From Lachnospiraceae bacterium UBA3850 (GTDB taxonomy: Bacteria > Bacillota > Clostridia > Lachnospirales > Lachnospiraceae), in NCBI GenBank assembly GCA_002392655.1, contig DGHK01000051.1, positions 1-64,000 of the forward strand: a stretch of 64,000 nt of DNA, in the 5' to 3' direction. The position numbers were made by a program, and so were the translations under genes. Of this stretch, positions 1 through 15,425 are shown piece by piece. Position 1 is the first letter of the stretch, and every line of letters begins with the position of its first letter. The notes under the pieces are model-generated. The model saw only the letters and a program-made list of their open reading frames with translations, was not told the origin of the DNA and made no database searches.

Positions 1-1
1 A

Positions 2-1279
2 GATCCCGGAACGGGAAGTATGCTCATAACAATTATCATAGGTCTCTTCGGAACGGCACTTTATTTCCTGAGAAATCTGTTCCTTAAAGTCAGATTCTTC
101 GGAAAGAAGGATAAGTCGAATGGCGAAAAGCTTCCGATAGTAATATTCTCTGATGATAAGAGATACTGGAATGTTTTTGAGCCTATATGTGATGAACTTG
201 AAAAGAGAGAAGAGAAGGCAGTCTATATGACTGAATCTGAGGATGATCCTGCTCTTGAAAAGGAATATAAGTTTGTTGAGACTAAGTGTATAGGTAAGGG
301 AAATGATGCGTATGTTAAGCTTAATCACTTAAAGGCATATGTTGTACTTTCAACGACACCAAGTCTTGATGTATTCCAGTGGAAGAGATCAAAGGATGTT
401 GATTATTACGCTCATATATTGCATGCACCAGGTGATCTAACGATGTATAGAATGTTTGGGATAGATTATTATGATGCTCTTCTTTTATCTGGAGAATTTC
501 AAGGCGAACAAAATAGAGAACTTGAAAAATTAAGAAATCTCCCCGAAAAAGAGATGGTTTATGTTGGATTATCTTATATGGATCAACTTCAGGAAAAGCT
601 TGAAAACTTCAATATTAACCAGAATAAACAAAAAAAGAATATGTCAGATTCGAAAGAAAAAGTTGTACTTCTTGCTCCTTCATGGGGTCCCAATGGTATT
701 TTAAGAAAATATGGATCTCAACTCATAGATGAATTGTTAGATACGGGGTATAATATAGTTATTAGACCTCACCCACAATCGTTTGTATCTGAGAAAGAAT
801 ATATAGATGAATTGATCGAAAAATATAAAGGGATAGAAAAGTTGGAGTGGAATATGGATAATGATAACTTTGAATCCTTAAGAACATCCGATATAATGAT
901 TTCTGATTTTTCAGGTGTCATTTTTGACTATGTTATGGTGTTTAACAAGCCAGTTATTTATACAACTCCTGATTATGATAAGTCAATATATGATTGTGCA
1001 TGGATTGATAAAGAGCTTTGGACATTTAATATACTTCCCCAAATTGGACTAGAATTATCTGAAGATAATTTTGTAAATATAAAGGATTTAATAGAAGAAT
1101 GTCTCTCTTTGAGTAGTCTTTCCGATGGAAGAGATAAAGCGAGAGACGAAGCTTGGATGAATAAGGGGAAATGTGCAGAAAGTACAGTTAATTATTTGAT
1201 TAAGAAGAAAGATGAATTAGAGAATTTGAATAAAAGTGAAGAGAATGACAAAGAAAATAGCTCTAAGGTTAAAAAATAA
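2..1279 (+). CDS. CDP-glycerol glycerophosphotransferase family protein (5' end outside window)
   Basis: Resembles the TagB/TagF family, which transfers alcohol-phosphate units from a CDP-activated donor onto a membrane-linked glycan at the inner membrane face. Visible family marks are the RPHPQ motif (near base 770) and SDFSGVIFDY (near base 905), the usual C-terminal donor-binding signature. A hydrophobic segment near the start (ITIIIGLFGTALYFL) should anchor it. An ATG lies at base 20, but the six codons before it read in frame as DPGTGS. That sequence commonly precedes this hydrophobic segment in Firmicutes envelope proteins, so the true start is probably left of the window. The next gene follows after 24 bases. 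In this phosphonate operon the donor could be a CMP-phosphonate rather than CDP-glycerol; that is inference. Confidence 0.85.
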   Translation, partial: DPGTGSMLITIIIGLFGTALYFLRNLFLKVRFFGKKDKSNGEKLPIVIFSDDKRYWNVFEPICDELEKREEKAVYMTESEDDPALEKEYKFVETKCIGKGNDAYVKLNHLKAYVVLSTTPSLDVFQWKRSKDVDYYAHILHAPGDLTMYRMFGIDYYDALLLSGEFQGEQNRELEKLRNLPEKEMVYVGLSYMDQLQEKLENFNINQNKQKKNMSDSKEKVVLLAPSWGPNGILRKYGSQLIDELLDTGYNIVIRPHPQSFVSEKEYIDELIEKYKGIEKLEWNMDNDNFESLRTSDIMISDFSGVIFDYVMVFNKPVIYTTPDYDKSIYDCAWIDKELWTFNILPQIGLELSEDNFVNIKDLIEECLSLSSLSDGRDKARDEAWMNKGKCAESTVNYLIKKKDELENLNKSEENDKENSSKVKK

Positions 1280-1303
1280 ATTGGTGTAGAGTTGGCATAG
1301 TTT

Positions 1304-2272
1304 ATGGAGAAAATAGCTGTTCTAATTCCTTGTTATAACGAGGCAAATACAATTAAAAAGGTTGTCGCTGATTTTTTGGAGGTGTTGCCGGAAGCTACTA
1401 TCTACGTATATGACAATAACTCAACTGATGGTTCAGGGGAGATAGCTAAGAAGGCGGGAGCTGTAGTTAGGCACGAGTACGTTCAAGGAAAAGGCAATGT
1501 TATACGTCGCATGTTTCGTGAGATAGATGCTGAATGTTACGTTATAGTAGATGGAGATGATACATATCCGGCTGAAGCTTCATCTATTATGGTCGAAAAG
1601 GTTCTTAACTATCAGGTTGATATGGTCGTTGGAGATAGGCTATCCTCGACATATTATAAAGAAAACAAAAGAAGATTCCATAGTTTTGGAAATTCAATAG
1701 TGAGAAAAACTATAAACTTTCTTTTTGATAGTGATATAAGGGATATAATGACTGGTTATAGGGCTTTTTCGTATCAATTTGTTAAAACCTTTCCTGTTCT
1801 TTCAAAAGGTTTTGAAATAGAAACAGAGATGAGTATTCATGCGATTGATAAAAATATGTCAGTTGAAAACTGTGTAGTTGAGTATAGAGATAGACCTGAT
1901 AATAGTGAATCAAAGTTAAACACATATTCAGATGGATTCAAGGTTGTAGGGACAATTGTTAGATTATTTAAAAATTATAAACCGTTGGCATTTTTTGGGT
2001 TTATAGCGCTTATACTTGCGATTATATCGATTGTGTTTTTTATCCCTGTTATGGTTGAGTTTTTAAAGACTGGATTTGTTCCTAGATTTCCGACACTTAT
2101 AATGTGTGTTTTTATGATGATTGCAGCGATTCAATCTTTTTTTGCGGGACTTATCCTTCAGACAAATGTTCAGAAGAATCGGCATGATTTTGAGATGGAG
2201 CTTATTCGTTGTAATGAAAGATATAATGATTTAAAGAATAAAAAAAATGATTATTATGCAGAGGTAAAGTAA
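1304..2272 (+). CDS. Family 2 glycosyltransferase, polyprenyl-phosphate glycosyltransferase type
   Basis: A 322-residue GT-A enzyme similar to dolichol-/undecaprenyl-phosphate sugar transferases. The N-terminal IPCYNEANTI motif and the metal-binding DGDDTYPAE (D84 onward) define the catalytic domain. Two membrane helices follow (about residues 224-246 and 258-282), as in GtrB/ArnC-type enzymes that charge undecaprenyl phosphate with a sugar. The product would serve a GT-C enzyme or a polymer assembled outside the membrane. The ribosome binding site is weak. The stop codon directly abuts the ATG of the next gene, so the two are probably translationally coupled. The sugar is unknown. Confidence 0.85.
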   Translation: MEKIAVLIPCYNEANTIKKVVADFLEVLPEATIYVYDNNSTDGSGEIAKKAGAVVRHEYVQGKGNVIRRMFREIDAECYVIVDGDDTYPAEASSIMVEKVLNYQVDMVVGDRLSSTYYKENKRRFHSFGNSIVRKTINFLFDSDIRDIMTGYRAFSYQFVKTFPVLSKGFEIETEMSIHAIDKNMSVENCVVEYRDRPDNSESKLNTYSDGFKVVGTIVRLFKNYKPLAFFGFIALILAIISIVFFIPVMVEFLKTGFVPRFPTLIMCVFMMIAAIQSFFAGLILQTNVQKNRHDFEMELIRCNERYNDLKNKKNDYYAEVK

Positions 2273-4921
2273 ATGAGCGTAGGATTAGTTTTATATACAA
2301 TTCTAATAAAACCTTTAGAAACACTATTTGATTTTATTTTTTATAGATCGTACTACCATTTTGTTAACGCAGGTTTATCGATTATCATTCTAAGTCTTGT
2401 GGTGAACTTTTTAGCACTCCCTCTTTACAGGAGGGCAGATAAGATGCAGGCTGAGGAAAGTGAAAAAAGGTTTAAAATCAAGAAGTGGGAGGATCATATA
2501 AAAAAGAATTTCAAAGGAAATGAGAGGTTTATGATGCTTCAGACTTACTATCGTCAGAACGATTATAAACCTTACCAGACGTTGAAAAGTGCTATGCCAC
2601 TTCTCTTAGAAATTCCGTTTTTTATAGCTGCGTATCATTTTCTTTCTAATCTTCCCTTAATTGATAATGCTAGCTTTGGTCCTTTGAAAAACCTTGGTGC
2701 ACCCGATGGGTTACTAAAAATATCCGGAATTACAATTAATGTTTTACCTGTTATTATGACTGTAATTAATATCATTTCAGGAACAGTTTACAACCGGACA
2801 GTTTCTTTTAAGGATAAAATTCAGACATATATTCTTGCGTTAGTTTTTTTAGTTCTTCTTTATAAATCACCATCAGGACTTGTTTTTTATTGGACACTTA
2901 ATAATATATTCTCATTATGTAAGAATATAGTATATAGGCTTAAACCAGATAATGATAAGAAAAAGGATACTAAAAAGGAGAAGAATACCTTTGGCTTTTT
3001 GGTTTCTGCTTTACTCCTTGCAATATTTACAGGTATGTATATTCCTACTACTATAGTTAAATCTTCAGTCGAAGAATTTATTGATATAATAGAACTTGAA
3101 AATCCTGTTAATTATATAATCCTAAGCTTCTGTTTAGCTGCTGGTTTCTTTGTGGTGTGGTTAGGAGTATTCTTTTTTCTTTCAAGTGATAGATTTAAAC
3201 GTATTTCTTGTAGACTTATTAGTTCGCTAGCTTTTATTGCGATGCTAGAATATTTAGTTGTACCCGAGAATTTTAGAATCTCACAAAAATTAGTTTATTT
3301 AAATACTCCTGTTTATTCAGTTAATCAACATATTCAGGGAGTGGTAATATTTGTTGCAACTATGGTTCTTTGTTTTTACGTTTATGGAAAGAAAAAAAAC
3401 TTAGTTATTAGTTTGATTTTTTCTGCACTTGCTATATTTACAGTAATCAGTATTTATAATCTGAACAGAATAAATGGTGAGTATGATATTAAATCAGAAA
3501 ATCTTAAAAAGTATAATGAGTATCCGGAGATTCATTTAAGTAAAAACGGAAAAAATGTTATGGTCATTATGATGGACAGAATGGTTAGTTATTTTATTCC
3601 ATACTTGTTTACTGAAAAACCAGAATTGTATGACAGATATGATGGTTTTACTTATTATCCTAATTGCGTCAGTTTTGGAACGGCGACAAATACAGGGTCG
3701 CCTGCACTTTATGGAGGGTATGATTATACTCCGCTTCAGATGAATGCTCGTACGGATATGCTTTTAGAAGAAAAACATAATGAGGCGCTAAAGGTAATGC
3801 CGGTTTTGTTTGATAAAGAAAATTACGATGTTACTGTTTGTGATCCTTCATATGCTGGATATGACTGGAAGCCTGATTTAAGCATATATGATGAATATCC
3901 TAATATTAGTAAATATATAACTGAAGGAAGAATGAGTCCTGAAGAGTATAGAACTGATATGGGTAAAGTCATTAAAAGAAATCTTTTCTTTTATGGAATT
4001 CTAAGAAGTAGCCCTACTATATTTAGAGACTATATTTATAATTATGGATATTATAATTCTGCTATAAAAGCTTCTACAAATGAAGTGGGTGACCAGACTA
4101 TATATAGTTTATCGAAAGCGTCAGGACTTAGTACAGAATATTATGATTCTTATTGTGTTCTTGCGAGTCTTCCATCAGTAACTTCAATAGATGATTCTGT
4201 TAAAGGAAGCTTTTTGATGATGAGTAATAATACTACTCATTCTGATACATTACTTCAAGAACCGGATTATGAGCCTTCGTTAAATGTGGATAATACAGAA
4301 TTTGATACTCAGAATCCATCAAGAAAAGATTGGGATGGTAATATACTTAACTTATATAATAATGATGGTCAGATGATATACAATTCTGATGGGACTACCA
4401 CAGATGGAAATATGCTTCGTGTTCTTCATTATCATATAAACATGTCTGCACTTTTAATACTGGCAGACTATTTTGATTATTTGAAGGCTGAGGGAGTATA
4501 TGACAATACCAAAATTATTATCGTATCTGACCATTCGGCTCACTTAGGACTTGAAACCGGATTAATGTGTGTTTTGGATTTTGAGGATGGAAGAGAGACT
4601 GTTACTGATCTTCTGGGATTTCAAAGTACTTTGCTAGTTAAAGATTTTAATTCGACTGGATTTAAGGTTGATGATAGATTTATGACTAACGCTGATGTTC
4701 CATCAATTGCGACAGAAGGGGTTATTGAAAATGCTAAAAATCCTTTTACCAATAATCCATTATCTAATGACGAGAAGAATAATGAGCCGGTATGGCTTAT
4801 GGCAACTAAAAACTACAGAGTTGAAGAAAACAATGGATATAGATTTATGCCGGAACAATGGTTTTCAGTACATGATAATATATTTGAAGGATCGAACTGG
4901 AGTTACGAGGGTTACCATTGA
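2273..4921 (+). CDS. YidC/Oxa1 domain fused to a sulfatase/LtaS-like phosphotransferase domain
   Basis: One uninterrupted 882-residue frame. Residues about 1-225 look like a YidC/Oxa1 insertase core: a first helix ending in LPLYRRADKMQ with basic residues, a charged cytoplasmic hairpin, then AMPLLLEIPFFIAAY and KSPSGLVFYWTLNNIF, which match the YidC helix pattern. A Lys-rich linker and about five further helices follow (240-400). From about 420 to 850 there is an alkaline phosphatase/sulfatase-superfamily domain with metal-ligand-type motifs: MVIMMDRM (D433), TNTGSPALYGG (Thr/Ser nucleophile region, near 472-481) and IIVSDHSAH (D753, H754). LtaS and phosphoethanolamine transferases use this fold outside the membrane. 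It lies between glycan and phosphonate genes, so it may transfer a phosphonate or phosphoalcohol. The fusion logic is unknown. Confidence 0.8.
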   Translation: MSVGLVLYTILIKPLETLFDFIFYRSYYHFVNAGLSIIILSLVVNFLALPLYRRADKMQAEESEKRFKIKKWEDHIKKNFKGNERFMMLQTYYRQNDYKPYQTLKSAMPLLLEIPFFIAAYHFLSNLPLIDNASFGPLKNLGAPDGLLKISGITINVLPVIMTVINIISGTVYNRTVSFKDKIQTYILALVFLVLLYKSPSGLVFYWTLNNIFSLCKNIVYRLKPDNDKKKDTKKEKNTFGFLVSALLLAIFTGMYIPTTIVKSSVEEFIDIIELENPVNYIILSFCLAAGFFVVWLGVFFFLSSDRFKRISCRLISSLAFIAMLEYLVVPENFRISQKLVYLNTPVYSVNQHIQGVVIFVATMVLCFYVYGKKKNLVISLIFSALAIFTVISIYNLNRINGEYDIKSENLKKYNEYPEIHLSKNGKNVMVIMMDRMVSYFIPYLFTEKPELYDRYDGFTYYPNCVSFGTATNTGSPALYGGYDYTPLQMNARTDMLLEEKHNEALKVMPVLFDKENYDVTVCDPSYAGYDWKPDLSIYDEYPNISKYITEGRMSPEEYRTDMGKVIKRNLFFYGILRSSPTIFRDYIYNYGYYNSAIKASTNEVGDQTIYSLSKASGLSTEYYDSYCVLASLPSVTSIDDSVKGSFLMMSNNTTHSDTLLQEPDYEPSLNVDNTEFDTQNPSRKDWDGNILNLYNNDGQMIYNSDGTTTDGNMLRVLHYHINMSALLILADYFDYLKAEGVYDNTKIIIVSDHSAHLGLETGLMCVLDFEDGRETVTDLLGFQSTLLVKDFNSTGFKVDDRFMTNADVPSIATEGVIENAKNPFTNNPLSNDEKNNEPVWLMATKNYRVEENNGYRFMPEQWFSVHDNIFEGSNWSYEGYH

Positions 4922-4954
4922 TAATTAGATTGGTTTATGAAAGTGAGGGTGAGT

Positions 4955-6250
4955 ATGAAAACTGTATATACATGCTTTTGTACTGATATTATTCATGAGG
5001 GACATTTGAATATTATTAAAAAGGCAAAAGAACTTGGTGACTTGATTGTTGGAGTTTTGGTTGATGACAAAATGATTAAGTATAACCGTTTTCCTACCAA
5101 GACTACTGATGAGAGAGTACGTATGATTGAAAAATTGGATGGTGTGTCCAAAGTTGTTGTACAGGATGAGATTATGTATGACAAAATCATACGTAATCTA
5201 AAACCGGACTACGTTATTCATGGTGACAACTGGCAGGACCCCGGAATGGCGGTGATTAGAGATAACATTATTAATAATCTTTCGACCTATGGAGGAAAAC
5301 TGGTAGAAATCCCGTATACATATAATTCTGTTATACAAAAAAAAGATAAGCAAATGATAGAAAAACTTGCTATGCCGGAGTTTCGACGTGGACGTCTAAA
5401 AAGGGTTATGTCACTTTTGCCAATAGTAAAAGCGCTAGAGGTTCATAGTGGTCTGACGGGACTTATTGCGGAAAAGACTGTAGTTACTAATGGTGGAGAG
5501 ATAGATCAGTTTGATGCGATGTGGATTAGCTCTTTGTGTGACAGTACTAATAAGGGTAAGCCGGATATTGAGCTCGTTGATATGACCAGTCGTTTCAGAA
5601 CAATAGAAGATGTAACTGAAGTGACGACTAAACCGATTATTTTTGATGGGGATACAGGTGGTCTTACGGAGCATTTTGTTTACACTGTCAGGTCGCTTGA
5701 AAGAATGGGGGTATCAGCTGTTATCATAGAAGATAAAACAGGCCTTAAGAAAAACAGCCTGTTTGGAACAGAAGTAGAACAGAATCAAGAGAGTATAGAG
5801 AGGTTTTGTGAAAAACTAACTGCTGGTAAAAATGCTCAACTATCTGATGATTTTATGATAATAGCCAGGATAGAAAGTCTTATTCTTGAAAAGGGAATGG
5901 AAGATGCTTTAAAACGTGCATTTGCATATAGAGAAGCGGGCGCCGATGGAATAATGATTCATAGCAGAAGAAAGGAAGCGGATGAAATAATAGAATTCTG
6001 TGATAGATTTAGGCTAGATGATAAAGATACACCTATCGTTGTTGTGCCTACTTCATTTAATCACATCACAGAAAATGAATTGGCTGAACATGGGGTTAAT
6101 ATCTGTATCTATGCTAATCAATTACTTCGTGCAGCATATCCAGCTATGGAAAATGCAGCTGTTGAAATACTTAAGAATCACAGGGCGTTTGAGATAGATA
6201 AAAAACTAATGCCAATCAAACAGGTTATTTCATTAATTGAGGAACATTAA
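4955..6250 (+). CDS. aepX: Phosphoenolpyruvate mutase with N-terminal HxGH nucleotidyltransferase domain
   Basis: Catalyses PEP to phosphonopyruvate, the C-P bond-forming entry step to phosphonates. The PEP mutase domain (about residues 150-431) carries the diagnostic EDKTGLKKNS (E259-D260-K261 onward) and the GDTGG loop. The N-terminal 135 residues form a cytidylyltransferase-type Rossmann domain with H14-E-G-H17, as in TagD-like enzymes. A similar fusion is known in Fom1 of fosfomycin biosynthesis, where the extra domain cytidylylates a phosphonate. The start at 4955 is chosen because GAGGGTG lies just upstream; the in-frame ATG at 4937 has no binding site. It is the first committed gene of a complete AEP pathway in this operon. 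Confidence 0.92.
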   Translation: MKTVYTCFCTDIIHEGHLNIIKKAKELGDLIVGVLVDDKMIKYNRFPTKTTDERVRMIEKLDGVSKVVVQDEIMYDKIIRNLKPDYVIHGDNWQDPGMAVIRDNIINNLSTYGGKLVEIPYTYNSVIQKKDKQMIEKLAMPEFRRGRLKRVMSLLPIVKALEVHSGLTGLIAEKTVVTNGGEIDQFDAMWISSLCDSTNKGKPDIELVDMTSRFRTIEDVTEVTTKPIIFDGDTGGLTEHFVYTVRSLERMGVSAVIIEDKTGLKKNSLFGTEVEQNQESIERFCEKLTAGKNAQLSDDFMIIARIESLILEKGMEDALKRAFAYREAGADGIMIHSRRKEADEIIEFCDRFRLDDKDTPIVVVPTSFNHITENELAEHGVNICIYANQLLRAAYPAMENAAVEILKNHRAFEIDKKLMPIKQVISLIEEH

Positions 6251-6268
6251 ATAATTAGAGGGGTTTTT

Positions 6269-7003
6269 ATGGAAATAATCAATTCAAAGTGGAAAAGTAT
6301 TTGGGAAAAAAGAGATGTTGCGACAGATTCTTTGATTGACAAAAATGATAAAAAAAGCATTTTTCTGGAATTAAAAAGAATTGATGGATTCGATGTGGTA
6401 GGTGATGGTCTTTCGTATAATGCTTTGATAAGTCAGTACAAAGAAATCAAGGAGAGACTATTTCCGGATTCTAGTTCATATGAGGGGAAAAGTGTTTATG
6501 AGGTAGGATGTGGATGTGGTGCGAATCTTTACCTTTTTGAAGATGATGGGTTTATTACCGGTGGGAATGATTACTCAAGGAATTTGATAGATATAGCTGG
6601 AGACATTCTTGAAAGTAAGGATATATCCTGCTGTGAGGCTAAAGATATAACTTCTGATATGAAGTACGATTCTTGTTTTTCAAATAGTGTATTTTCATAC
6701 TTTCCGGGTATGGATTATGCTTATCGTGTTCTTTCAATCATGGTCGAAAAAGCTAATAGTTCTATCGGACTTATTGATATCCATGATATAGAAAAGAAGG
6801 AAGCTTTCGTTGAATATAGAAAGAAAACTATTGAAAATTATGAAGAAAGATATAAGGACCTGCAAAAATATTTCTATTCGAAACAGTTCTTTATCGATTT
6901 TGCAAAAAAGAATGATTTAGAGATCGTTATAACAGATTCTCATATTGACGGATATTGGAATAATGAATTTGTCTTTAATTGTTATTTTTATAAAAAACAG
7001 TGA
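6269..7003 (+). CDS. Class I SAM-dependent methyltransferase
   Basis: A 244-residue protein with the SAM-binding glycine motif YEVGCGCGANLYL at about residues 77-89 and a downstream acidic residue region typical of the class I fold. A good ribosome binding site (AGAGGGG) precedes the ATG. Its stop overlaps the binding-site region of the AEP transaminase gene. Within a phosphonate operon it may methylate AEP, a hydroxyethylphosphonate or the acceptor sugar. Nothing in the sequence identifies the substrate. The gene is in the same reading direction and tightly packed, so co-expression is likely. Confidence 0.75.
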   Translation: MEIINSKWKSIWEKRDVATDSLIDKNDKKSIFLELKRIDGFDVVGDGLSYNALISQYKEIKERLFPDSSSYEGKSVYEVGCGCGANLYLFEDDGFITGGNDYSRNLIDIAGDILESKDISCCEAKDITSDMKYDSCFSNSVFSYFPGMDYAYRVLSIMVEKANSSIGLIDIHDIEKKEAFVEYRKKTIENYEERYKDLQKYFYSKQFFIDFAKKNDLEIVITDSHIDGYWNNEFVFNCYFYKKQ

Positions 7004-7011
7004 GGATCATA

Positions 7012-8121
7012 ATGAATATTAAAAGAAATGTTTTATTAAATGCCGGGCCGTCTACTACAACAGATACAGTAAAAATGGCTCAGGTCGTTCCTGATATTTG
7101 CCCTCGTGAAAAAGAGTTTAAGGATATTATGAAACCTATGAGGGATGACCTAGTTAAAATTGTTCATGGAAGTAAAGATGAGTATACATCAGTTCTCTTT
7201 TGTGGTTCGGGGACTATCTGTATCGACATAGCAGTAAACTCGCTTTTGGAAGAGGGTAAAAAAGCTTGTTTTATAAATAATGGTGCGTATAGTCAGAGAG
7301 CTGTCGATGTTGCGAGGTATTACGGAATTCCCTTTATAGAGATTAAACAACCAGTTGATCAGTTGCCGGATATGGAGAAGATTAAAGAGGAAGTGAGTAA
7401 GCATGATGATATTGGATATATCTACGCAACTCATCATGAAACTGGAACCGGTCTGCTTAATCCTATTAGTGAACTTGGAAGAATTGCTCATGAAATTGGA
7501 GCTTTCTTTATTACAGATACTACATCTTCATATGCAATGATTCCAATAGATGTATACAAGGATAATATTGATTTTTGTATGGCGTCTGCGCAAAAAGGAA
7601 TAATGGGTACAACAGGTCTTTCGTTTATAATTGGTAAAACTGATATTATAAAAAAGTCGGCTGATTTTCCTAAGAGATCATATTATTGTAATTTATATAT
7701 GCAATATGATTATTTTGAAAAAACGGGTGAGATGCATTTTACTCCTCCTGTTCAAACTGTTTATGCTGCTAAGCAAGCGCTTATAGAGTATTTTGAGGAA
7801 GGAGAAGCCGGAAAATGGGCCAGACATCAACGTGTTATGAATGCGATTCATAAGGGACTTAAAGATATGGGGCTTAAGGAAGCGTTGGATAAAGATGTTC
7901 AATCCGGACTGGTAGCTTCAGTATGTTATCCTGAAAGTCCTAATTGGGACTTTGATAAAGTTCATGATTATTGTTATGAACGGGGCTTTACCATTTATCC
8001 GGGTAAGATTGATGGTAGAGATACTTTCAGACTATGTGCTTTGGGTGCGATAGATGAAAAAGATATAGAAGATTTTTTTGATGTGTTTAAAGAAGCTTTT
8101 GATGAGTATGGAATAAACTGA
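7012..8121 (+). CDS. aepZ: 2-aminoethylphosphonate transaminase
   Basis: A fold type I PLP enzyme of 369 residues related to PhnW. In a biosynthetic locus it aminates phosphonoacetaldehyde to 2-aminoethylphosphonate. The N-terminus LLNAGPSTTTDTVKMAQVV and DICPREKEF are characteristic of the AEP transaminase family. The PLP lysine is K195 in SAQKGIMGTTG. A GTG at 7000 is in frame, but GTGAGG serves better as the ribosome binding site for the ATG at 7012, so that start is chosen. It sits between the methyltransferase and the cytidylyltransferase gene and is separated from the latter by one base, consistent with a linked pathway. Confidence 0.88.
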   Translation: MNIKRNVLLNAGPSTTTDTVKMAQVVPDICPREKEFKDIMKPMRDDLVKIVHGSKDEYTSVLFCGSGTICIDIAVNSLLEEGKKACFINNGAYSQRAVDVARYYGIPFIEIKQPVDQLPDMEKIKEEVSKHDDIGYIYATHHETGTGLLNPISELGRIAHEIGAFFITDTTSSYAMIPIDVYKDNIDFCMASAQKGIMGTTGLSFIIGKTDIIKKSADFPKRSYYCNLYMQYDYFEKTGEMHFTPPVQTVYAAKQALIEYFEEGEAGKWARHQRVMNAIHKGLKDMGLKEALDKDVQSGLVASVCYPESPNWDFDKVHDYCYERGFTIYPGKIDGRDTFRLCALGAIDEKDIEDFFDVFKEAFDEYGIN

Positions 8122-8122
8122 T

Positions 8123-8842
8123 ATGAATAAAGAAATAGCAGTTATTATGGCTGCCGGAATGGGCACAAGGATGGCTCCCCTGACAAAGAAAATTGCAAAG
8201 CCTCTAGTAAAAGTGAAGGGGGAGAGCATGATTGAAACTGTAATCAGTGGATTAAGCAGGCGTGATATCAGTCATATATACGTGGTTGTTGGGTATAAGT
8301 CCGAACAGTTCAGATACTTGGAAGAGAAATATGACTTTCTAACAATTATAGAAAACAAAGAGTATGAATATAAGAATAATTTATCTTCGGTTTATGCTGT
8401 TTGTGATTATATCGGCGAAGAGGACTGCTTTATTTGTGAAGCGGATCTCTATATATCTGATCCAACTATTTTTGATAAGTCACTTAACAAGTCTGGATAT
8501 TATGGTAGGTTTGTTCCTTCTTATTCAACCGATTGGCTATTTGATTGTGCTTCAGATGGGCGCATCACACATGTTGGGAAGGGTGGCTCTGACTGCTACA
8601 ATATGGTTGGTATCTGTTATTTTAAAGGGAAAGATATGTCGAAACTTAAAAAGTATGTCAAGCTTGCCTATATGGAAGAAGGACATGACGACTTATTTTG
8701 GGATGAAATAGTGGATGCTCACCTTGATGAACTTGATATGATAGTTTATCCGGTTGAGAGTAATCAGATTGTGGAAATTGATACTGTGGAAGAATTGATA
8801 GAGGTAGATCCTCAAACTTATGCACATATGAGGTTTGACTGA
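8123..8842 (+). CDS. pntC: PntC-like 2-aminoethylphosphonate cytidylyltransferase
   Basis: A 239-residue nucleotidyltransferase of the LicC/phosphocholine cytidylyltransferase type. The signature AAGMGTRMAPLT (residues 10-21) and K26-P27 bind the nucleotide; CEADLYI and EID supply candidate metal-binding acids. PntC enzymes described in phosphonate loci activate AEP with CTP to CMP-AEP, and are often fused to or adjacent to the AEP transaminase, as here. The product would be a CMP-activated donor for decorating surface glycans. A phosphocholine-specific LicC is the alternative, but no licA or licB gene is nearby, so AEP is favoured by context. Confidence 0.8.
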   Translation: MNKEIAVIMAAGMGTRMAPLTKKIAKPLVKVKGESMIETVISGLSRRDISHIYVVVGYKSEQFRYLEEKYDFLTIIENKEYEYKNNLSSVYAVCDYIGEEDCFICEADLYISDPTIFDKSLNKSGYYGRFVPSYSTDWLFDCASDGRITHVGKGGSDCYNMVGICYFKGKDMSKLKKYVKLAYMEEGHDDLFWDEIVDAHLDELDMIVYPVESNQIVEIDTVEELIEVDPQTYAHMRFD

Positions 8843-8844
8843 TT

Positions 8845-9963
8845 ATGAATATAAATGTTTTTTTTGATATTGTAGGTGCTCAGTTTTACGCCGGTGTTCC
8901 AGATAGTCAGTTGAAAGCGCTATGCGACTATCTCATGTGTATATATGGTATAGATTCCAATCATCATATAATTGCGGCGAATGAAGGTAATGCAGTAGCA
9001 ATAGCAGCGGGATATCATCTTTCGACAGGAAAGATTCCGGTTGTTTATATGCAGAATTCCGGAGAAGGAAATGTTATTAATCCGGTTGCATCATTACTTA
9101 GTGATAAAGTATATGGTATTCCTATAATTTTTGTTGTGGGTTGGAGAGGGGAACCCGGTGTGCATGATGAACCTCAGCACATCTATCAAGGTGAGGTGAC
9201 CATTAAGCTTCTTGAGGATATGGATATTAGTACATTTGTGATTGATAAGGATGTTTCTGAATCTGACCTTAAGGAAGCTATGGATTCTTTTGGGGCTGTT
9301 CTAGACAAAGGAAAGAGTGTTGCTTTTGTTGTAAAAAAAGGTGCGCTTGAGTATGATGGTAAGATTCAATATAAGAATGATTATCCGATGACTAGGGAAG
9401 AAATAGTAAAGCATATAGTCAGTGCTGCTTCTGATGATGTGATTGTGTCAACTACCGGAAAGGCCAGTAGAGAGCTTTTCGAGATTCGTGAGTCAGAAGG
9501 GATTGGACATGAAAGAGATTTTTTGACAGTAGGTTCTATGGGACACACTTCATCTATAGCTTTAGGGATTGCACTCAATAAACCTGAAAAAAGAATTTGG
9601 TGTATAGACGGCGATGGCGCCGCTCTTATGCATATGGGTGCAATGGCGGTTATAGGTTCGTATAAGCCTGGTAATATGATTCATATAGTGATCAATAACG
9701 AGGCTCATGAAACGGTAGGGGGTATGCCGACGGTTGCGGGCAATGTTGATCTAGCGGGGGTAGCTAAAGCGTGTGGATATACGTATTCAGTTACTGTCAG
9801 TGATAAAAGTGCACTTGATGAGGAATTGAATAAAGTTAAGAGTAGAAGAGACCTTAGTCTTATAGAAATTAAATGTTCGATTGGGGCTAGAGCAGATCTT
9901 GGAAGACCTACAACTACACCGATGGAAAATAAACGTGGTTTTATGGATTATCTGAAGAGATAG
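8845..9963 (+). CDS. aepY: Phosphonopyruvate decarboxylase
   Basis: A ThDP-dependent decarboxylase of 372 residues that converts phosphonopyruvate to phosphonoacetaldehyde, the irreversible step that pulls the unfavourable PEP mutase reaction forward. The N-terminal catalytic Glu is E47 in AANEGNAVAIAAGY. The ThDP/Mg motif is D255-GDGAALMHMG ending in NNEAH near residue 282. The length is that of the compact single-chain Ppd family (about 370-400 residues), not of the 550-residue acetolactate synthase type. It is the last gene of the operon; the next gene has its own promoter 17 bases on. Confidence 0.92.
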   Translation: MNINVFFDIVGAQFYAGVPDSQLKALCDYLMCIYGIDSNHHIIAANEGNAVAIAAGYHLSTGKIPVVYMQNSGEGNVINPVASLLSDKVYGIPIIFVVGWRGEPGVHDEPQHIYQGEVTIKLLEDMDISTFVIDKDVSESDLKEAMDSFGAVLDKGKSVAFVVKKGALEYDGKIQYKNDYPMTREEIVKHIVSAASDDVIVSTTGKASRELFEIRESEGIGHERDFLTVGSMGHTSSIALGIALNKPEKRIWCIDGDGAALMHMGAMAVIGSYKPGNMIHIVINNEAHETVGGMPTVAGNVDLAGVAKACGYTYSVTVSDKSALDEELNKVKSRRDLSLIEIKCSIGARADLGRPTTTPMENKRGFMDYLKR

Positions 9964-9979
9964 GATAAAAGGACTGTGC

Positions 9980-10008
9980 TTGATATTTGTGCCGTTTTAT
10001 ATTATTAT
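9980..10008 (+). promoter_or_regulatory. Sigma-A-type promoter for ireB-ruvX
   Basis: A -35 TTGATA (9980-9985) and a -10 TATTAT (10003-10008) are separated by 17 bases. This gives a predicted transcript start near 10015, about 40 bases before the ireB ATG. It separates the housekeeping block from the phosphonate operon. Confidence 0.7.
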
Positions 10009-10054
10009 AGCTATAACTGTAAATTTTTACACAGCATTTATGTGAGGCGTAAAT

Positions 10055-10321
10055 ATGGATAGATATGACGAACAGCATACACAGGATGTCAATCTTGAAC
10101 GTGAATATACCATAGAAGTATCTGAAGTTGTTGCTCAGGTTTATGAGGCACTTTCAGAAAAGGGTTATAATCCGGTGAATCAGATAGTTGGTTATATAAT
10201 GAGTGGAGATCCCACCTATATAACCAGCTATAAAGGTGCGCGCAGTCTTATCATGAAGGCTGAGAGGGATGAGATACTCGAACTTCTTATGGAAAATTAT
10301 ATAGAGACGGTGTTAAAGTAG
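10055..10321 (+). CDS. ireB: IreB family regulatory phosphoprotein (UPF0297)
   Basis: An 88-residue protein matching the UPF0297/IreB family throughout, with the family-typical central segment [19 protein letters not shown] and [10 protein letters not shown]. In Enterococcus, IreB is a threonine phosphoprotein target of the IreK kinase and negatively affects cephalosporin resistance; its role elsewhere is less clear. N-terminal threonines are present (T9 and T19). The gene is preceded by GAGG and followed after 10 bases by ruvX, the usual Firmicutes arrangement. Confidence 0.93.
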
Positions 10322-10331
10322 GTAGGTTATT

Positions 10332-10760
10332 ATGAGAATCATGGGACTGGATTATGGCAGTAAAACTGTCGGGGTGGCAATCTCTGATGAATTACTGATA
10401 ACCGCACAGCCTGTTGAAACAATTGTGAGAGATAGATCAAACAAGCTCAGGAAAACTTATCAGAGGCTTGAAGAACTAATCAGTGAGTATGAGGTAGAGA
10501 AAATAATTGTCGGAAAACCTCTCAATATGAACGGAACTGAGGGGGAGATGGTTTCGCTTGCTACTAGCTTTGCCGAGGAACTTTCCAGAAGAACCGGCCT
10601 TTCGGTTGAGATGCTGGATGAGCGCCTTACCACCTCGGAGGCTGACAGGATTCTTAAAGAGACGGGTGTTGCCATATCCGGCAGAAAAGAACATATAGAT
10701 AAGATGGCAGCGGCAATCATACTGCAGACTTATCTGGATATGAATAAGGTTAATAAATAA
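10332..10760 (+). CDS. ruvX: Holliday junction resolvase-like protein RuvX (YqgF)
   Basis: A 142-residue RNase H-fold protein. The start MRIMGLDYGSKTVGVAISD holds the first catalytic Asp, and DERLTTSEADRIL plus a C-terminal HIDKMAAAIILQ carry the remaining acid positions of the YqgF family. The family acts on structured nucleic acids, with roles proposed in recombination and in pre-16S rRNA 5' processing. Full length. It lies directly downstream of ireB, as in many clostridia, and is likely transcribed from the same promoter. Confidence 0.93.
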   Translation: MRIMGLDYGSKTVGVAISDELLITAQPVETIVRDRSNKLRKTYQRLEELISEYEVEKIIVGKPLNMNGTEGEMVSLATSFAEELSRRTGLSVEMLDERLTTSEADRILKETGVAISGRKEHIDKMAAAIILQTYLDMNKVNK

Positions 10761-10811
10761 GGCACTGGAATTTAGATATCCCGTGTCATATTTATTATTG
10801 GAGGACCAAAA

Positions 10812-12473
10812 TTGGAGAACGGAAAAGGAACGGTTAAGATCATACCTCTTGGTGGACTTGAACAGATAGGTATGAATATAACTGCTATTGAATGTAATGA
10901 CGATATAATTATAATAGACGGCGGACTTGCATTCCCAGATGATGATATGCTGGGAGTGGATCTTGTCATTCCTGATATATCTTATCTCAAGGATAACAAG
11001 GACAAGATCAGAGGTATGGTTGTTACACATGGACATGAGGATCATATAGGCTCCATACCATATATCGAAAAAGAGATAAGTATACCTATATATACAACGA
11101 AACTTACCATGGGACTTATTGAGTATAAGCTTGGTATGCATGGCCTTCTGGATAATGTGAGAAGAAAGGTTGTGACCTATGGCCAGATTATAAATCTCGG
11201 CTGCTTCAGGATAGAGTTTATAAGAACCAATCACTCAATTGCAGACTCCTGTGCACTTGCTCTTTATACACCTGCCGGAATTATAGTACATACAGGAGAT
11301 TTCAAGGTTGATTTTACTCCTGTTTTCGGAGGAACTATAGATCTTCAGAGATTCGGCGAGCTGGGAAAAAAGGGTGTGCTTATGCTCATGGCAGATTCTA
11401 CAAATGTTGAGAGACCTGGCTTTACTCCTTCAGAGAAGAGCGTTGGCAAAACATTTGACCATGTGTTTGATGACATAAGAGATCACAGACTCATCATAGC
11501 TACGTTTGCTTCTAATGTCGATAGAGTTCAGCAGATAATAGATTCTGCTTATAAATATGGCAGGAAGGTTATCCTTGAAGGACGCAGTATGGTAAATGTT
11601 ATGAATATTGCCTCTGAGCTTGGTTATATCAAGGTGCCTGATAACACTCTGATCGATATTGATGAGGCAAAGAATTATCCTGATGAGAAGCTTGTATATA
11701 TAACCACTGGAAGCCAGGGCGAGAACATGGCGGCTCTTTCCAGAATAGCAGCTTCCATACATAACAAGATATCTATAGTTCCCGGTGATGTAGTTATTTT
11801 TTCATCAAGTCCTATACCGGGTAATGAGAAATCTGTTTACAGAGTTATGAATGAGCTGGAACAGAAGGGGGCCAGAGTTATATATCATGATACTCATGTT
11901 TCCGGACATGCCTGCCAGGAGGAACTTAAGCTTATATATGCTCTTACCAGACCTAAATATGCAGTTCCGGTTCACGGAGAGTATAGACACCTGAAGAGGC
12001 ATGCTGAGCTTGCAAACGAGATGGGAATACCAAAGGAGAATATCAAGATCCTTACCTGTGGTGATGTTCTGGAACTGGGAGAGGATAAGTTCGAGATAGT
12101 CGGCAAGGTTCCGTCAGGTGGAGTATTTGTAGATGGGCTCGGAGTCGGCGATGTCGGAAATATAGTTATAAAGGATAGACAGCATCTATCTGAGAATGGA
12201 CTTGTGGTTGTTGTTATAACTCTTGAGTCAGGAACGAATCAGATTCTTGCGGGACCGGATATAGTATCAAGAGGCTTTGTGTATGTAAGAGAAGCGGAGA
12301 TGCTTATAGAGCAGTGCAAGGATATAGCTGAGGAGGCTGTTCAGAGATGCTTATCCAGAGATAATGTTGACTGGAGCAGGATCAAGGCCAATGTCAGAGA
12401 GGATCTGGGAGAATTTCTCTGGCAGAAGACTAAAAGAAGACCTATGATTCTTCCTATTATATCTGAGGTATAG
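10812..12473 (+). CDS. rnj: Ribonuclease J
   Basis: A 553-residue metallo-beta-lactamase/beta-CASP nuclease of the RNase J family, a 5'-3' exo- and endoribonuclease of Firmicutes mRNA turnover. The zinc-binding motif H73-G-H75-E-D77-H78 is intact. Downstream are HTGDFKVDF, the beta-CASP residues of PVHGEYRHL, and the C-terminal domain. Translation starts at TTG 10812, with GGAGGA at 10800-10805 at the correct distance; no ATG lies nearby in frame. The next gene follows after two bases. Confidence 0.95.
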   Translation: MENGKGTVKIIPLGGLEQIGMNITAIECNDDIIIIDGGLAFPDDDMLGVDLVIPDISYLKDNKDKIRGMVVTHGHEDHIGSIPYIEKEISIPIYTTKLTMGLIEYKLGMHGLLDNVRRKVVTYGQIINLGCFRIEFIRTNHSIADSCALALYTPAGIIVHTGDFKVDFTPVFGGTIDLQRFGELGKKGVLMLMADSTNVERPGFTPSEKSVGKTFDHVFDDIRDHRLIIATFASNVDRVQQIIDSAYKYGRKVILEGRSMVNVMNIASELGYIKVPDNTLIDIDEAKNYPDEKLVYITTGSQGENMAALSRIAASIHNKISIVPGDVVIFSSSPIPGNEKSVYRVMNELEQKGARVIYHDTHVSGHACQEELKLIYALTRPKYAVPVHGEYRHLKRHAELANEMGIPKENIKILTCGDVLELGEDKFEIVGKVPSGGVFVDGLGVGDVGNIVIKDRQHLSENGLVVVVITLESGTNQILAGPDIVSRGFVYVREAEMLIEQCKDIAEEAVQRCLSRDNVDWSRIKANVREDLGEFLWQKTKRRPMILPIISEV

Positions 12474-12475
12474 AT

Positions 12476-12796
12476 ATGGATGAACTGATAGAACAGTGCA
12501 GAAAACTAAATCAGCTGATCATTGATTCAAAGGAATATAAGAATTATATCATTGCCAGAGAATCCATAAAATCAAATGAAGAGCTTTATAATGACCTTAT
12601 GGAATTCAAAAGAAGATATGAGGATGTAATGAAGTTTACCGATGGAAATCCATTTGATGAGATACATAGGCTGTATTATGATAATGACGAATTGATACAC
12701 AATTCGACCGTAAATGAATATCTGAGAGCGGAAAGTGCTCTATCGAGACTTGTCAGAAGAATCATCTCTGAGATAACAGATGGTGTAGATATATAA
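12476..12796 (+). CDS. YlbF/YmcA (Com_YlbF) family protein
   Basis: A 106-residue, mainly helical protein of the Com_YlbF family. Members form the Y-complex that guides RNase Y in Bacillus and influence competence and biofilm formation. The pattern of charged helices (IIDSKEYKNYI, MEFKRRYEDVM) and the C-terminal LVRRIISEI fit the family. It lies two bases after the ribonuclease J gene, which fits a function in RNA decay. The exact paralogue (YlbF, YmcA or YheA type) cannot be decided by eye. Confidence 0.8.
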   Translation: MDELIEQCRKLNQLIIDSKEYKNYIIARESIKSNEELYNDLMEFKRRYEDVMKFTDGNPFDEIHRLYYDNDELIHNSTVNEYLRAESALSRLVRRIISEITDGVDI

Positions 12797-12809
12797 AAAA
12801 GGATTAATT

Positions 12810-13391
12810 ATGAAGGCGAACAGCAGAAGAAAAAAAGCTTTAAAAACTGAAAACAGACTAAGGGTTGCTCTATACTATTCGTTTCAGCTGCTTATTGATG
12901 TTTTGATAGTGCTGGTGTGTGTGAAGGCTTTTTCTGCCTCCTTCAATTTTGCGCATGATGTATTTGTTGATTCTGCAAAGGATCTGAGAAATCATGAACT
13001 TGTGGTTGTAAAGATTGCTCCGGATTCTTCTACTAGTACTATATGTGATCAGCTGTATGACAGTGGAGTCATCAAGAATAAGTATGTTATGATGGCCAAG
13101 ATTAAGCTTAGTGAAGTTGGTGGAAATATAAAGTCCGGAAGCTATACTCTGTCTCCTTCAATGAAATATAGTGAAATAATAGGTATTCTCACAGGTGGAG
13201 TTTCTACTAATAAAGAGGTTGAGGAAGTAGATAAGAAAAAGAAGGTAAATACACCTACCGATGCTGAGGATGTTATTGATAACTCAGGAGCCGGAGCCGG
13301 TACCGGTGAAGAGGGCGATGATTTCGTGGATAATTCGGAGGACGCTGCCGGAACAGATGAAGGCGGAGTTCCAAATGAGGCCGGTGAGTGA
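12810..13391 (+). CDS. MltG-like membrane protein lacking the catalytic domain
   Basis: A 193-residue protein with one N-terminal membrane helix (about residues 23-45) and an extracellular domain (VVKIAPDSSTSTICDQLYD to SGSYTLSPSMKYSEIIGIL). This resembles the LysM-like N-terminal part of the endolytic transglycosylase MltG. The catalytic YceG domain that would follow is absent. Instead the protein ends in a Gly/Glu/Asp-rich tail (about residues 150-193), probably disordered. The reading frame shows no sign of a recent frameshift, and short versions are seen in related organisms. It may bind peptidoglycan without cutting it. The stop overlaps the ribosome binding region of trmR. Confidence 0.65.
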   Translation: MKANSRRKKALKTENRLRVALYYSFQLLIDVLIVLVCVKAFSASFNFAHDVFVDSAKDLRNHELVVVKIAPDSSTSTICDQLYDSGVIKNKYVMMAKIKLSEVGGNIKSGSYTLSPSMKYSEIIGILTGGVSTNKEVEEVDKKKKVNTPTDAEDVIDNSGAGAGTGEEGDDFVDNSEDAAGTDEGGVPNEAGE

Positions 13392-13393
13392 TA

Positions 13394-14032
13394 ATGGATT
13401 ATAATAGAATAAGAGATTTTGTACTATCATATAGTCATGATGATGAAGGACTTCTTCGTGAGATGTACGAATATGCATCTGAAAATAATGTTCCTATCAT
13501 CAGGCGTGAATCGAGAGATTTTTTAAAAACTATACTTACTATTCAAAAACCTCATAGGATTCTGGAAATTGGAACTGCGATTGGTTACTCAGCCATAGTG
13601 ATGGCTGAAACTCTTGGAGAAGTTTTTATAGATACCTGTGAGATGGACGAAGTAAGGATAGAAGAGGCCAAGGGGTTTATAGAACGTGCCGGTATGGAAG
13701 ATCGGATATTGATCCATGAAGGTGACGCAACGATAAGCTTGAAGCAATTAGAAGGCAATATATATGATTTTGTCTTTATAGATGCTGCGAAGGCTCAGTA
13801 TATGACCTATCTGAATCTTTTGCTTCCTTTATGCAAAGAAGGCACCGTTATCGTTTCTGACAATATACTTGCTGACGGTGATGTTCTTGAATCGCATTTC
13901 CTTGTTGAGAAAAGAGACAGAACTATACATGATCGCATGAGAGACTATTTATATAGTATAAAAAATGACGAGAGACTGGAGACTGCGATACTATCTGTTG
14001 CTGATGGTATGGCAGTTTCTGTTGTAAAATGA
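13394..14032 (+). CDS. trmR: tRNA 5-hydroxyuridine methyltransferase (TrmR/YrrM family O-methyltransferase)
   Basis: A 212-residue class I SAM enzyme of the COG4122 O-methyltransferase family. Motifs: LEIGTAIGYSAIVMAE (SAM loop), CEMDEVRIEEA (ribose acid), FVFIDAAKAQY and VIVSDNILADGDV (metal-site acids). Bacterial members of this family adjacent to U32 genes methylate 5-hydroxyuridine at tRNA position 34 to 5-methoxyuridine. The neighbouring U32 gene supports that reading. A GTG at 13388 is in frame, but the ATG at 13394 has GGTGAG properly placed, so it is preferred. Confidence 0.8.
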   Translation: MDYNRIRDFVLSYSHDDEGLLREMYEYASENNVPIIRRESRDFLKTILTIQKPHRILEIGTAIGYSAIVMAETLGEVFIDTCEMDEVRIEEAKGFIERAGMEDRILIHEGDATISLKQLEGNIYDFVFIDAAKAQYMTYLNLLLPLCKEGTVIVSDNILADGDVLESHFLVEKRDRTIHDRMRDYLYSIKNDERLETAILSVADGMAVSVVK

Positions 14033-14042
14033 GAGGTGGAAT

Positions 14043-15302
14043 ATGAAGAAACCTGAACTACTTATTCCTGCAGGCGGACCTGAGACACTCAGGGTTGCAG
14101 TTGATTACGGGGCGGATGCGGTTTATATAGGAGGAAACAGATTCGGCCTTAGGGCAAAAGCTGACAATTTCAGTCGTGAGGAAATGGCTGAAGGACTGGA
14201 GTATTGTCACAAACATGGTGTTAAGCTGTATGTTACCACCAATATCTATGCACATAATGAAGATATAGATAAAGCACCGGAGTATTTTAAGGAGCTTAGA
14301 GAAATAGGAGTTGATGCTGTTCTTATTTCTGATCCGGGGCTTTTTGTGATTGCAAGAGATATACTTAAGGATTCAAATACAGATATTCATATAAGCACGC
14401 AGGCAAATAATACAAATTATATGACATATAAATTCTGGTACGATATGGGTGCGACCAGAGTGGTCGCTGCCAGAGAACTTTCCTTGCGAGAGATAGCAGA
14501 GATAAGGAAGCAGATTCCTGAGGATATGGAGATAGAAGCTTTTATGCATGGTGCTATGTGCATCTCCTATTCGGGAAGATGTCTGCTTTCAAACTATCTG
14601 ACGGGTAGAGATGCTAACAGAGGCGCGTGTACACATCCTTGCAGATGGAAGTATGCTGTTATGGAGGAAAACCGTCCGGGTGAGTATATGCCTGTTGAAG
14701 AAGATGAGAGGGGAACGTATATATTTAATTCCAAGGATCTCTGCATGGTGGATAAAATACCTGATCTGATTGCGGCAGGAATTGATTCCTTCAAGGTGGA
14801 GGGTAGGATGAAGACCAACCTGTATGTTGCAACAACAGCCAGAACATACAGAGAGGCTATAGATGATTATCTGAAGTCACCTGAACTTTATGAATCAAAG
14901 CTTGAGAAGTATAAGGAAGAGATAGCTGCTTGCACGATGAGGGATTTTACGAGAGGTTTTTATTACGGAAAACCTTCCGAGGAAGATCAGATATATGATA
15001 ACAATACTTATATTAAGAATGCCACATATATGGGAAGGATAGATAGTATAGAGGAAGATGGCGGAGTAGTCCTCTATCAAAAAAATAAATTTTCGGTTGA
15101 CGACATACTGGAAGTGATGTATTATTCTTTGGTTTGCCTTTCGGTCAGAGTTAAGAACATCAAGGATGAATGGGGAAATGATATGACCTCAGCTCCTCAT
15201 CCGAAGCAGAAGCTCAAGGTTTATCTGGAAGCTCTTGATGAGAGCGGTAAAGAGGCTCTGAAAGAACTTAAGGAAGGTATGATAATCAGGAAAAAAGAAT
15301 AA
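14043..15302 (+). CDS. Peptidase U32 family protein, TrhP-like tRNA hydroxylation protein
   Basis: A 419-residue U32 protein beginning KKPELLIPAGGPETLRVAVDYGADAVYIGG, the family signature. Four cysteines (C173, C180, C196, C200, in the stretch from MCISYSGRC to ACTHPC) match the iron-sulfur ligands of the RlhA/TrhP hydroxylases. The FKVEGRMK motif is present. TrhP uses prephenate-derived chemistry to hydroxylate uridine 34, and TrmR then methylates it; the trmR gene lies 10 bases upstream. The older label, collagenase-like protease, is unlikely here. B. subtilis has two such genes (yrrN, yrrO); only one is present here. Confidence 0.85.
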   Translation: MKKPELLIPAGGPETLRVAVDYGADAVYIGGNRFGLRAKADNFSREEMAEGLEYCHKHGVKLYVTTNIYAHNEDIDKAPEYFKELREIGVDAVLISDPGLFVIARDILKDSNTDIHISTQANNTNYMTYKFWYDMGATRVVAARELSLREIAEIRKQIPEDMEIEAFMHGAMCISYSGRCLLSNYLTGRDANRGACTHPCRWKYAVMEENRPGEYMPVEEDERGTYIFNSKDLCMVDKIPDLIAAGIDSFKVEGRMKTNLYVATTARTYREAIDDYLKSPELYESKLEKYKEEIAACTMRDFTRGFYYGKPSEEDQIYDNNTYIKNATYMGRIDSIEEDGGVVLYQKNKFSVDDILEVMYYSLVCLSVRVKNIKDEWGNDMTSAPHPKQKLKVYLEALDESGKEALKELKEGMIIRKKE

Positions 15303-15314
15303 TAATATTTTTGT

Positions 15315-15342
15315 TTGATATTTATTATTTTTATGCTATAAT
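15315..15342 (+). promoter_or_regulatory. Extended -10 promoter for the type IV pilus operon (pilB)
   Basis: TTGATA (15315-15320), a 16-base spacer and TATAAT (15337-15342), with TG at 15334-15335 making an extended -10. The predicted start is near 15349, giving a 5' leader of about 77 bases before pilB. This is one of the best promoter matches in the window. Confidence 0.75.
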
Positions 15343-15355
15343 CATTATGTTAACG

Positions 15356-15390
15356 TCTCGAATTGGGCGATTTTTGCGCTTTAATCGAGA
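15356..15390 (+). promoter_or_regulatory. Inverted repeat in the pilB 5' leader
   Basis: TCTCGA (15356-15361) pairs with TCGAGA (15385-15390), with partly complementary GC-containing sequence between. It falls right after the predicted transcript start, so it could fold at the mRNA 5' end and protect or regulate it. The stem is short. Confidence 0.4.
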
Positions 15391-15425
15391 TTTTAATAGA
15401 AAAAATAAAGAGGAGAGGGTTTTTC

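Follow-up and report, generated by a model that had tools for sequence, protein, structure and literature searches.

The fusion gene YS

The gene considered here lies near the start of a 64,000-nucleotide stretch of DNA (the window) from Lachnospiraceae bacterium UBA3850 (GenBank assembly GCA_002392655.1, contig DGHK01000051.1, positions 1 to 64,000 of the forward strand). Termed YS, for YidC-sulfatase fusion, it is an unbroken frame of 882 amino acids (aa) in which the core of a YidC membrane insertase is joined to a transferase of the EptA, LtaS and PbgA type. In related loci it usually adjoins a second gene, GPT, which encodes a TagF-like phosphotransferase. The parts of YS are as follows.

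2273..4921 (+): YS, YidC core and EptA/LtaS/PbgA-type transferase, 882 aa
2273..2941 (+): YidC domain, residues 1-223, five transmembrane (TM) helices and C1 hairpin (PF02096, Foldseek, predicted helices)
2942..2986 (+): linker, residues 224-238, basic, presumably cytosolic (sequence; predicted local distance difference test score, pLDDT, 65-68)
2987..3511 (+): second membrane domain, residues 239-413, five helices (predicted structure; alignment with MCR-1 and PbgA)
3530..4918 (+): extracellular transferase domain of the alkaline phosphatase superfamily, residues 420-882

A preliminary description of the window had read YS as a single frame joining a YidC core (residues 1-225) to an LtaS/sulfatase-type enzyme, and both parts of this reading are borne out by domain and fold comparison. 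The YidC core family PF02096 matches residues 34-221 (E 2.6e-22, over its curated cut-off), TIGR03592 is barely over its own (84.6 versus 84.3) and in Foldseek residues 1-223 match chain 6al2_B with a root mean square deviation (rmsd) of 3.7 over 215 columns (E 2.3e-5); the five-TM core and the C1 hairpin are kept. In the AlphaFold model (pLDDT 91), residues 235-882 form a complete five-TM transferase, the catalytic domain of which has the alkaline phosphatase superfamily fold. LtaS is among the Foldseek matches, and the alignments with the MCR-1 and PbgA chains begin at residue 234-235, that with MCR-1 chain 9nww_B covering residues 235-835 (rmsd 14). The sulfatase-type part was not called in a Pfam scan of YS itself, but its fold match is clear and many of the homologues listed have a precomputed PF00884 match. 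By the positive-inside rule, the basic linker fits a chain running from a cytosolic YidC C-terminus to an outer catalytic domain.

Catalytic and groove residues

Residues were counted in 109 full-length fusions from the collected loci, the window included, and in alignment A2 of 118 rows. For the groove of the YidC domain, the comparison was with 19 canonical YidC proteins, from the window's own genome and 18 relatives of the same order. In the list below, the paired counts refer to these two fusion sets.

2405..2407 (+): codon of N45, where canonical YidC has its groove Arg/Lys (opposite R of E. coli YidC and of the YidC 2 chains 3wo6/3wo7 in the alignments)
3575..3577 (+): codon of D435, metal ligand position (109/109 and 118/118)
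3686..3688 (+): codon of T472, nucleophile position, at the N-terminus of helix 472-481 (109/109 and 118/118)
4238..4240 (+): codon of H656 (109/109 and 118/118)
4529..4534 (+): codons of D753-H754, metal ligand positions (109/109 and 118/118)

The five catalytic residues (D435, T472, H656, D753 and H754) are invariant and sit as expected along the predicted strands and helices. Their roles are assigned from a pattern of Thr nucleophile with Asp, Asp-His and His ligands, which we presume to be that of EptA-, LtaS- and PptA-type enzymes. Among the catalytic positions first proposed, T472 and D753-H754 stand, whereas the metal-site Asp is D435 and not D433, and H656 is to be added.

The groove differs from that of canonical YidC. 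Position 45 is N in 106, S in two and G in one of the 109 fusions (N 117, S 1 in A2), whereas the canonical proteins have R (17) or K (2); the basic groove residue of the YidC/Oxa1 superfamily is not kept. Other polar membrane sites of the fusions also contrast with their canonical counterparts: T163 (F, G, V or A), N166 (Q or T), N210 (S or G), N211 (A, N, S or T) and K217 (mostly I or Q). S41, T163, N166 and N210 are invariant in all 109 fusions, and N211 is kept in 108. As judged from these aligned sequences, the groove has been rebuilt.

Distribution of the fusion and of separate YidC

A protein database search with YS scored 7997 candidates, 6230 of which match at the threshold of E<=1e-3; all of the 120 best matches, which were listed, carry PF02096, and their best local alignments cover 98-100% of the query in 115 cases and 70-79% in five. 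By tblastn, at least 531 genome-contig stretches encode YS relatives. From these, 79 loci (1.45 Mb) were fetched and kept, and with the window they form the set of 80 loci used throughout; their sources are Lachnospiraceae, Oscillospiraceae/Ruminococcaceae, other Clostridia, Schwartzia, Solobacterium, Eggerthellaceae and an uncultured actinobacterium. The family is patchy, being found in five of 148 genomes of the class and five of 246 of the order, the window's own genome counted.

The preliminary description had raised the possibility that homologues occur only as separate proteins, which would point to an assembly artefact; most proved to be fused. In the genomes of the order, the transferase part gave seven matches in five of 246, all within frames of at least 882 aa, and with residues 400-882 as query most of the 120 matches listed were full-length fusions, whereas four were short and lacked a Pfam domain. 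One of these four, P0124 (638 aa), a close relative of the transferase part, has no YidC domain and looks genuine. An assembly artefact is ruled out by the 6230 database matches, the contig stretches and the long frames in genomes of the order.

The window's own genome holds a separate YidC of 441 aa on another contig. For 50 of the 79 loci the genome was surveyed as well, and 44 of these genomes have a YidC frame of 241-483 aa apart from the fusion. Among the remaining six, G228 and G254 have matches in frames of 511 and 189 aa, the single match in G215, G218 and G248 is the fusion, and the matches of G221 rank below those listed. YS is ruled out as the sole YidC of its own genome and of these 44 others; it is not the housekeeping YidC. 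Some of the 50 genomes hold many fusion copies.

The partner phosphotransferase GPT

Two genes precede YS in the window.

2..1279 (+): GPT, membrane-anchored TagF-like phosphotransferase for cytidine diphosphate (CDP)-X (PF04464, E 9.4e-13; 5' end cut by the contig start)
1304..2272 (+): glycosyltransferase of family GT2, dolichyl/polyprenyl-phosphate sugar synthase-like, accessory (PF00535 over cut-off, TIGR04182 below)

The window copy of GPT reads in at the D of an invariant DPGTG motif, with its first ATG frame at 20-1279, and its AlphaFold model (pLDDT 91.2) finds TagF as the best Foldseek match (3l7k, E 8.2e-14), consistent with a GT-B fold and PF04464 core. In the complete proteins of the other loci, the motif is carried by an N-terminal membrane helix, and an N-terminal hydrophobic stretch is present in 65 of 68 copies; no paper was found for YIDPGTGS in a text search of the open-licence literature. 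The family is present in 68 of the 80 loci, in 65 of them adjacent to YS and on the same strand. In the 59 pairs in which GPT precedes YS, the median gap is one base, 57 lie within 50 bases and 25 overlap.

GPT is thus the usual partner of YS, a gene that the preliminary description, too narrow in scope, had left unnamed. The coupling that it had reported was to the glycosyltransferase, and YS does begin on the base after the GT2 stop (2272/2273); however, this arrangement is local, as close relatives (E<=1e-20) occur in the window and L034 only. With two of 80 loci, GT2 is ruled out as a regular partner.

Headgroup genes and the place of LicD

Downstream of YS, the window carries a set of genes for 2-aminoethylphosphonate (AEP).

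4937..6250 (+): fusion of cytidylyltransferase and phosphoenolpyruvate (PEP) mutase (PF01467, PF13714, TIGR02320 over cut-off)
6269..7003 (+): S-adenosylmethionine methyltransferase-like, possibly for N-methylation of the headgroup (weak methyltransferase matches below cut-offs)
7000..8121 (+): AEP aminotransferase, PhnW/AepZ (TIGR03301 over cut-off)
8123..8842 (+): MobA/LicC/PntC-type nucleotidyltransferase (PF00483, PF12804 over cut-off), presumably LicC/PntC, by resemblance to LicC-type seeds
8845..9963 (+): phosphonopyruvate decarboxylase (TIGR03297 over cut-off)

Within this Pnt set (4937-9963), the PEP mutase, decarboxylase and aminotransferase exceed NCBIfam cut-offs and the nucleotidyltransferase exceeds Pfam cut-offs. 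The phosphonate context first noted for YS therefore holds for the window, but PEP mutase occurs in only five of the 80 loci, every time with phosphonopyruvate decarboxylase, and a phosphonate-specific enzyme as the general role of YS is ruled out. In L060, from the cultured Schwartzia succinivorans DSM 10502, PEP mutase lies beside the fusion. Choline kinase is commoner (17 of 80 loci, 16 of them with GPT, at 120 to 4228 bases from YS). LicC-type nucleotidyltransferases occur in 24 loci, LicB-like EamA transporters in seven and BCCT transporters in three.

These linkages exceed a background drawn from 61 relatives, which hold 39 choline kinases over cut-off and 13 PEP mutases at E<1e-30. For a background from the window's order and loci that span several groups, chance would place 0.36 choline kinases in 79 loci, and PEP mutase, with the window left out, is found in four of 79 against 0.12 expected. 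In the 50 YS genomes, 17 of 25 choline kinases over cut-off sit no more than 10 kb from a YS gene. On a tree of GPT, the choline label (16 rows) needs 10 changes and the AEP label (five rows) needs five, from which it follows that both linkages recur; headgroup-specific clades of GPT were not found.

The headgroup genes resemble those that elsewhere accompany LicD. By phmmer with three LicD seeds from the window's own genome, LicD-like genes were detected in just three of the 80 loci and in one of the 17 with choline kinase, and none was detected in window positions 1-16000. LicD is nevertheless common in the window's genus. At one locus of its own genome (L129, contig C3), a kinase-nucleotidyltransferase, a nucleotidyltransferase and a BCCT transporter are followed by LicD; in L045 and L055, these three gene families recur in that order but lead into GPT and YS, which suggests that the GPT-YS pair stands in LicD's place at such loci. 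Elsewhere in the own genome (L128, contig C25), two LicD matches lie near a PhnW-like aminotransferase and a TagD-like cytidylyltransferase.

It is proposed, with the chances evenly balanced, that GPT and YS work without LicD as a two-protein machine and decorate surface glycans with zwitterionic phospho-headgroups (phosphocholine, AEP and probably others). A teichoic-acid-type role for the pair is rather unlikely by comparison. In such a scheme, GPT would build or prime a polyol-phosphate or phosphodiester-linked glycan on a cytosolic lipid, YS would polymerise or modify it outside with an ordinary phospholipid donor such as phosphatidylglycerol, as LtaS does, and the YidC domain would aid membrane placement only. 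The matches of GPT to TagF and of YS to LtaS fit this scheme, as do LCP ligase-like genes in six of the 80 loci and the 58 loci that lack both choline kinase and PEP mutase within reach. However, the recurrent linkage to choline and AEP activation and the exchange with LicD point to headgroups rather than polyols, and the scheme leaves the fusion of YidC to either partner unexplained. Around those 58 loci, a Pfam scan of 99 out of 189 nearby frames gave 114 families; no common neighbour family appears among the 25 listed, nucleoside triphosphate transferases leading with six of 99 frames.

A second fusion of YidC

YidC is also fused to the other partner. A second family, YidC-GPT, combines a YidC core with a PF04464 domain and gave 2969 matches among 7998 scored, with both Pfam domains in 119 of the 120 listed. 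Its first members were two odd PF02096 frames, L130:212-2374 (-), in which PF04464 is over cut-off, and L131:3652-5562 (+), which matches by phmmer with PF04464 not reported; a search of 391 genomes of the class added four, giving six loci (L130, L131 and L136-L139). A separate sulfatase-type gene lies in five of the six by phmmer, three over and two below the Pfam cut-off, and in G196 the one adjacent to YidC-GPT is the genome's only PF00884 match. In the sixth (G557), decarboxylase, nucleotidyltransferase and PEP mutase genes follow directly downstream. At L139:1229-14498, YidC-GPT and PEP mutase genes share a same-strand run that resembles a glycan cluster, in a genome without a PF00884 match.

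YidC is thus joined to the outer enzyme in one family and to the inner enzyme in the other, a Rosetta-stone swap. The swap suggests that YidC is physically coupled with either enzyme, and could be accommodated if the domain were a relic whose one remaining role is to dock GPT at the membrane beside the transferase. This is very improbable, since a mere dock would not need S41, T163, N166 and N210 in every fusion and N211 in all but one.

A proposed pathway

The transferase fold of EptA and LtaS works outside the cell. Since GPT needs a cytosolic nucleotide donor, the headgroup would have to cross the membrane between the two enzymes. YidC is the membrane piece common to both fusions, and lipid scrambling by E. 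coli YidC has been observed in liposomes (preprint PMC10491306), so that a route through the YidC groove is proposed.

In the first step, which is drawn from annotation, neighbouring genes would make the headgroup and activate it as a CDP or cytidine monophosphate (CMP) derivative, by means of choline kinase and a LicC-type enzyme or of PEP mutase, decarboxylase, aminotransferase and nucleotidyltransferase; in the window, the headgroup would be AEP or a methylated form. GPT, anchored on the cytosolic side, would then take the headgroup off the nucleotide and load it onto a membrane lipid, and the YidC domain would let the lipid headgroup cross the bilayer via its polar groove. Finally, as fold and residues suggest by comparison with EptA and LtaS, T472 of the outer domain would attack the lipid headgroup and pass it to a glycan.

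That fusion to two different partners turned the YidC fold into a transporter devoted to lipid-linked headgroups, with a cytosolic CDP-X enzyme charging the lipid, YidC scrambling it and an outer transferase spending it, is a tentative reading and somewhat less probable than the machine and pathway proposed above. The suggestion of the preliminary description that the groove handles a lipid-linked substrate gains circumstantial support, whilst the lipid intermediate, its passage through YidC and the final acceptor we infer. An unlikely alternative keeps the same pathway but has the lipid cross by other means; the YidC domain would serve its own transferase and GPT's short N-terminal helix as a dedicated insertase or chaperone. 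The intact YidC fold with its C1 hairpin would suit such a chaperone, as would the hydrophobic stretch of GPT with its invariant DPGTG and the groove Lys kept in the YidC-GPT family (26 of 26 aligned). Against this, most YS genomes already possess a separate YidC, enzymes of the EptA/LtaS type elsewhere need no fused YidC, and the groove Arg/Lys has become Asn in 106 of 109 fusions.

Several observations weigh against the proposed pathway of headgroup transfer through YidC. The Lys of YidC-GPT implies that loss of the groove charge is not required. No GPT was found in 12 of the 80 loci, in some because contigs end, and P0124 shows that a relative without the YidC domain exists. Headgroup labels form no clean clades on the GPT tree, 58 loci have neither headgroup marker in reach, and choline kinase over cut-off anywhere in the genome is not enriched (18 of 50 YS genomes versus 26 of 61 relatives). 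Where the membrane part is included in the superposition (MCR-1, PbgA), the rmsd is 14-15. The G557 genome has no PF00884 match, but two of the five transferases linked to YidC-GPT fall below that cut-off too.

Relation to known systems

YS shares core fold, C1 hairpin and PF02096 with the YidC/Oxa1/Alb3 insertases, but differs in its fused enzyme, its groove Asn and its non-housekeeping status. With EptA/MCR, PptA, LtaS and PbgA, it shares the five TM helices and the extracellular catalytic domain, and appears to share the Thr, Asp, Asp-His and His positions; the extra YidC module, the TagF-like partner and the linkage to genes for CDP-choline or CMP-AEP set it apart. Like the TagB/TagF/TarL CDP-polyol phosphotransferases, GPT has the GT-B fold and PF04464, but it is a single domain with an N-terminal DPGTG helix or is fused to YidC, and its gene neighbours suggest CDP or CMP donors other than CDP-glycerol and CDP-ribitol.

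The Lic-1 system (LicA-LicB-LicC-LicD) has in common with these loci the choline kinase, nucleotidyltransferase and LicB-like EamA transporter that recur beside YS, but no LicD-like gene was detected by phmmer in 77 of 80 loci, where GPT-YS would take its place. In YS loci, Lic-1-type activation genes adjoin a PptA/EptA-like fold, and PptA puts phosphocholine on pilin according to PMC10434233; the proposed pathway would bear on a gap stated there, the phosphocholine donor of PptA-type transferases. The Pnt pathway (Ppm, Ppd, AEP aminotransferase and PntC) shares with the window the AEP set and nucleotidyltransferases. In the part of PMC6697681 available, the steps after C-P bond formation are called enigmatic, and LicD-like phosphotransferases and glycosyltransferases are named with no mention of a sulfatase, whereas the window has the YidC-sulfatase fusion. 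The pathway would also address the post-activation steps that bring AEP to cell surfaces, a gap stated in the same source.

In the open-licence literature searched, no paper was found on YidC fused with a sulfatase domain or a lipoteichoic acid synthase, nor one joining YidC with phosphonate biosynthesis; the parts are known, whilst neither the two fusion architectures nor the pathway link was found there. Among the matches listed, the database name of both fusion families, where one is given, is YidC insertase, the rest being hypothetical or blank, and the proposed pathway has been hidden by this annotation.

YidC is taught as a protein insertase, and to our knowledge its lipid scrambling in vitro has no assigned job in bacteria; the two large families of YidC-enzyme fusions offer a testable natural role for it. 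If the transporter reading is correct, gut and rumen bacteria would have a general route that decorates with phosphocholine and phosphonates and does without LicD, and this would be the first enzymatic pathway with insertase-type lipid scrambling at its centre.

Other features of the loci

A scan of window positions 1-11000 for promoters and terminators gave 48 and 4 sites, versus 47.7 and 3.7 in shuffles. In L064, eight fusion-family frames lie around one GPT gene (the two of 354 and 579 aa could be fragments of a single gene), a layout suggestive of a single charged lipid that supplies several transferases. A protein of about 158 aa adjoins the fusion gene in L040 (9387-9863), L065 and L072 and lies nearby in L088 and L103; the L040 copy belongs to the uracil-DNA-glycosylase superfamily.

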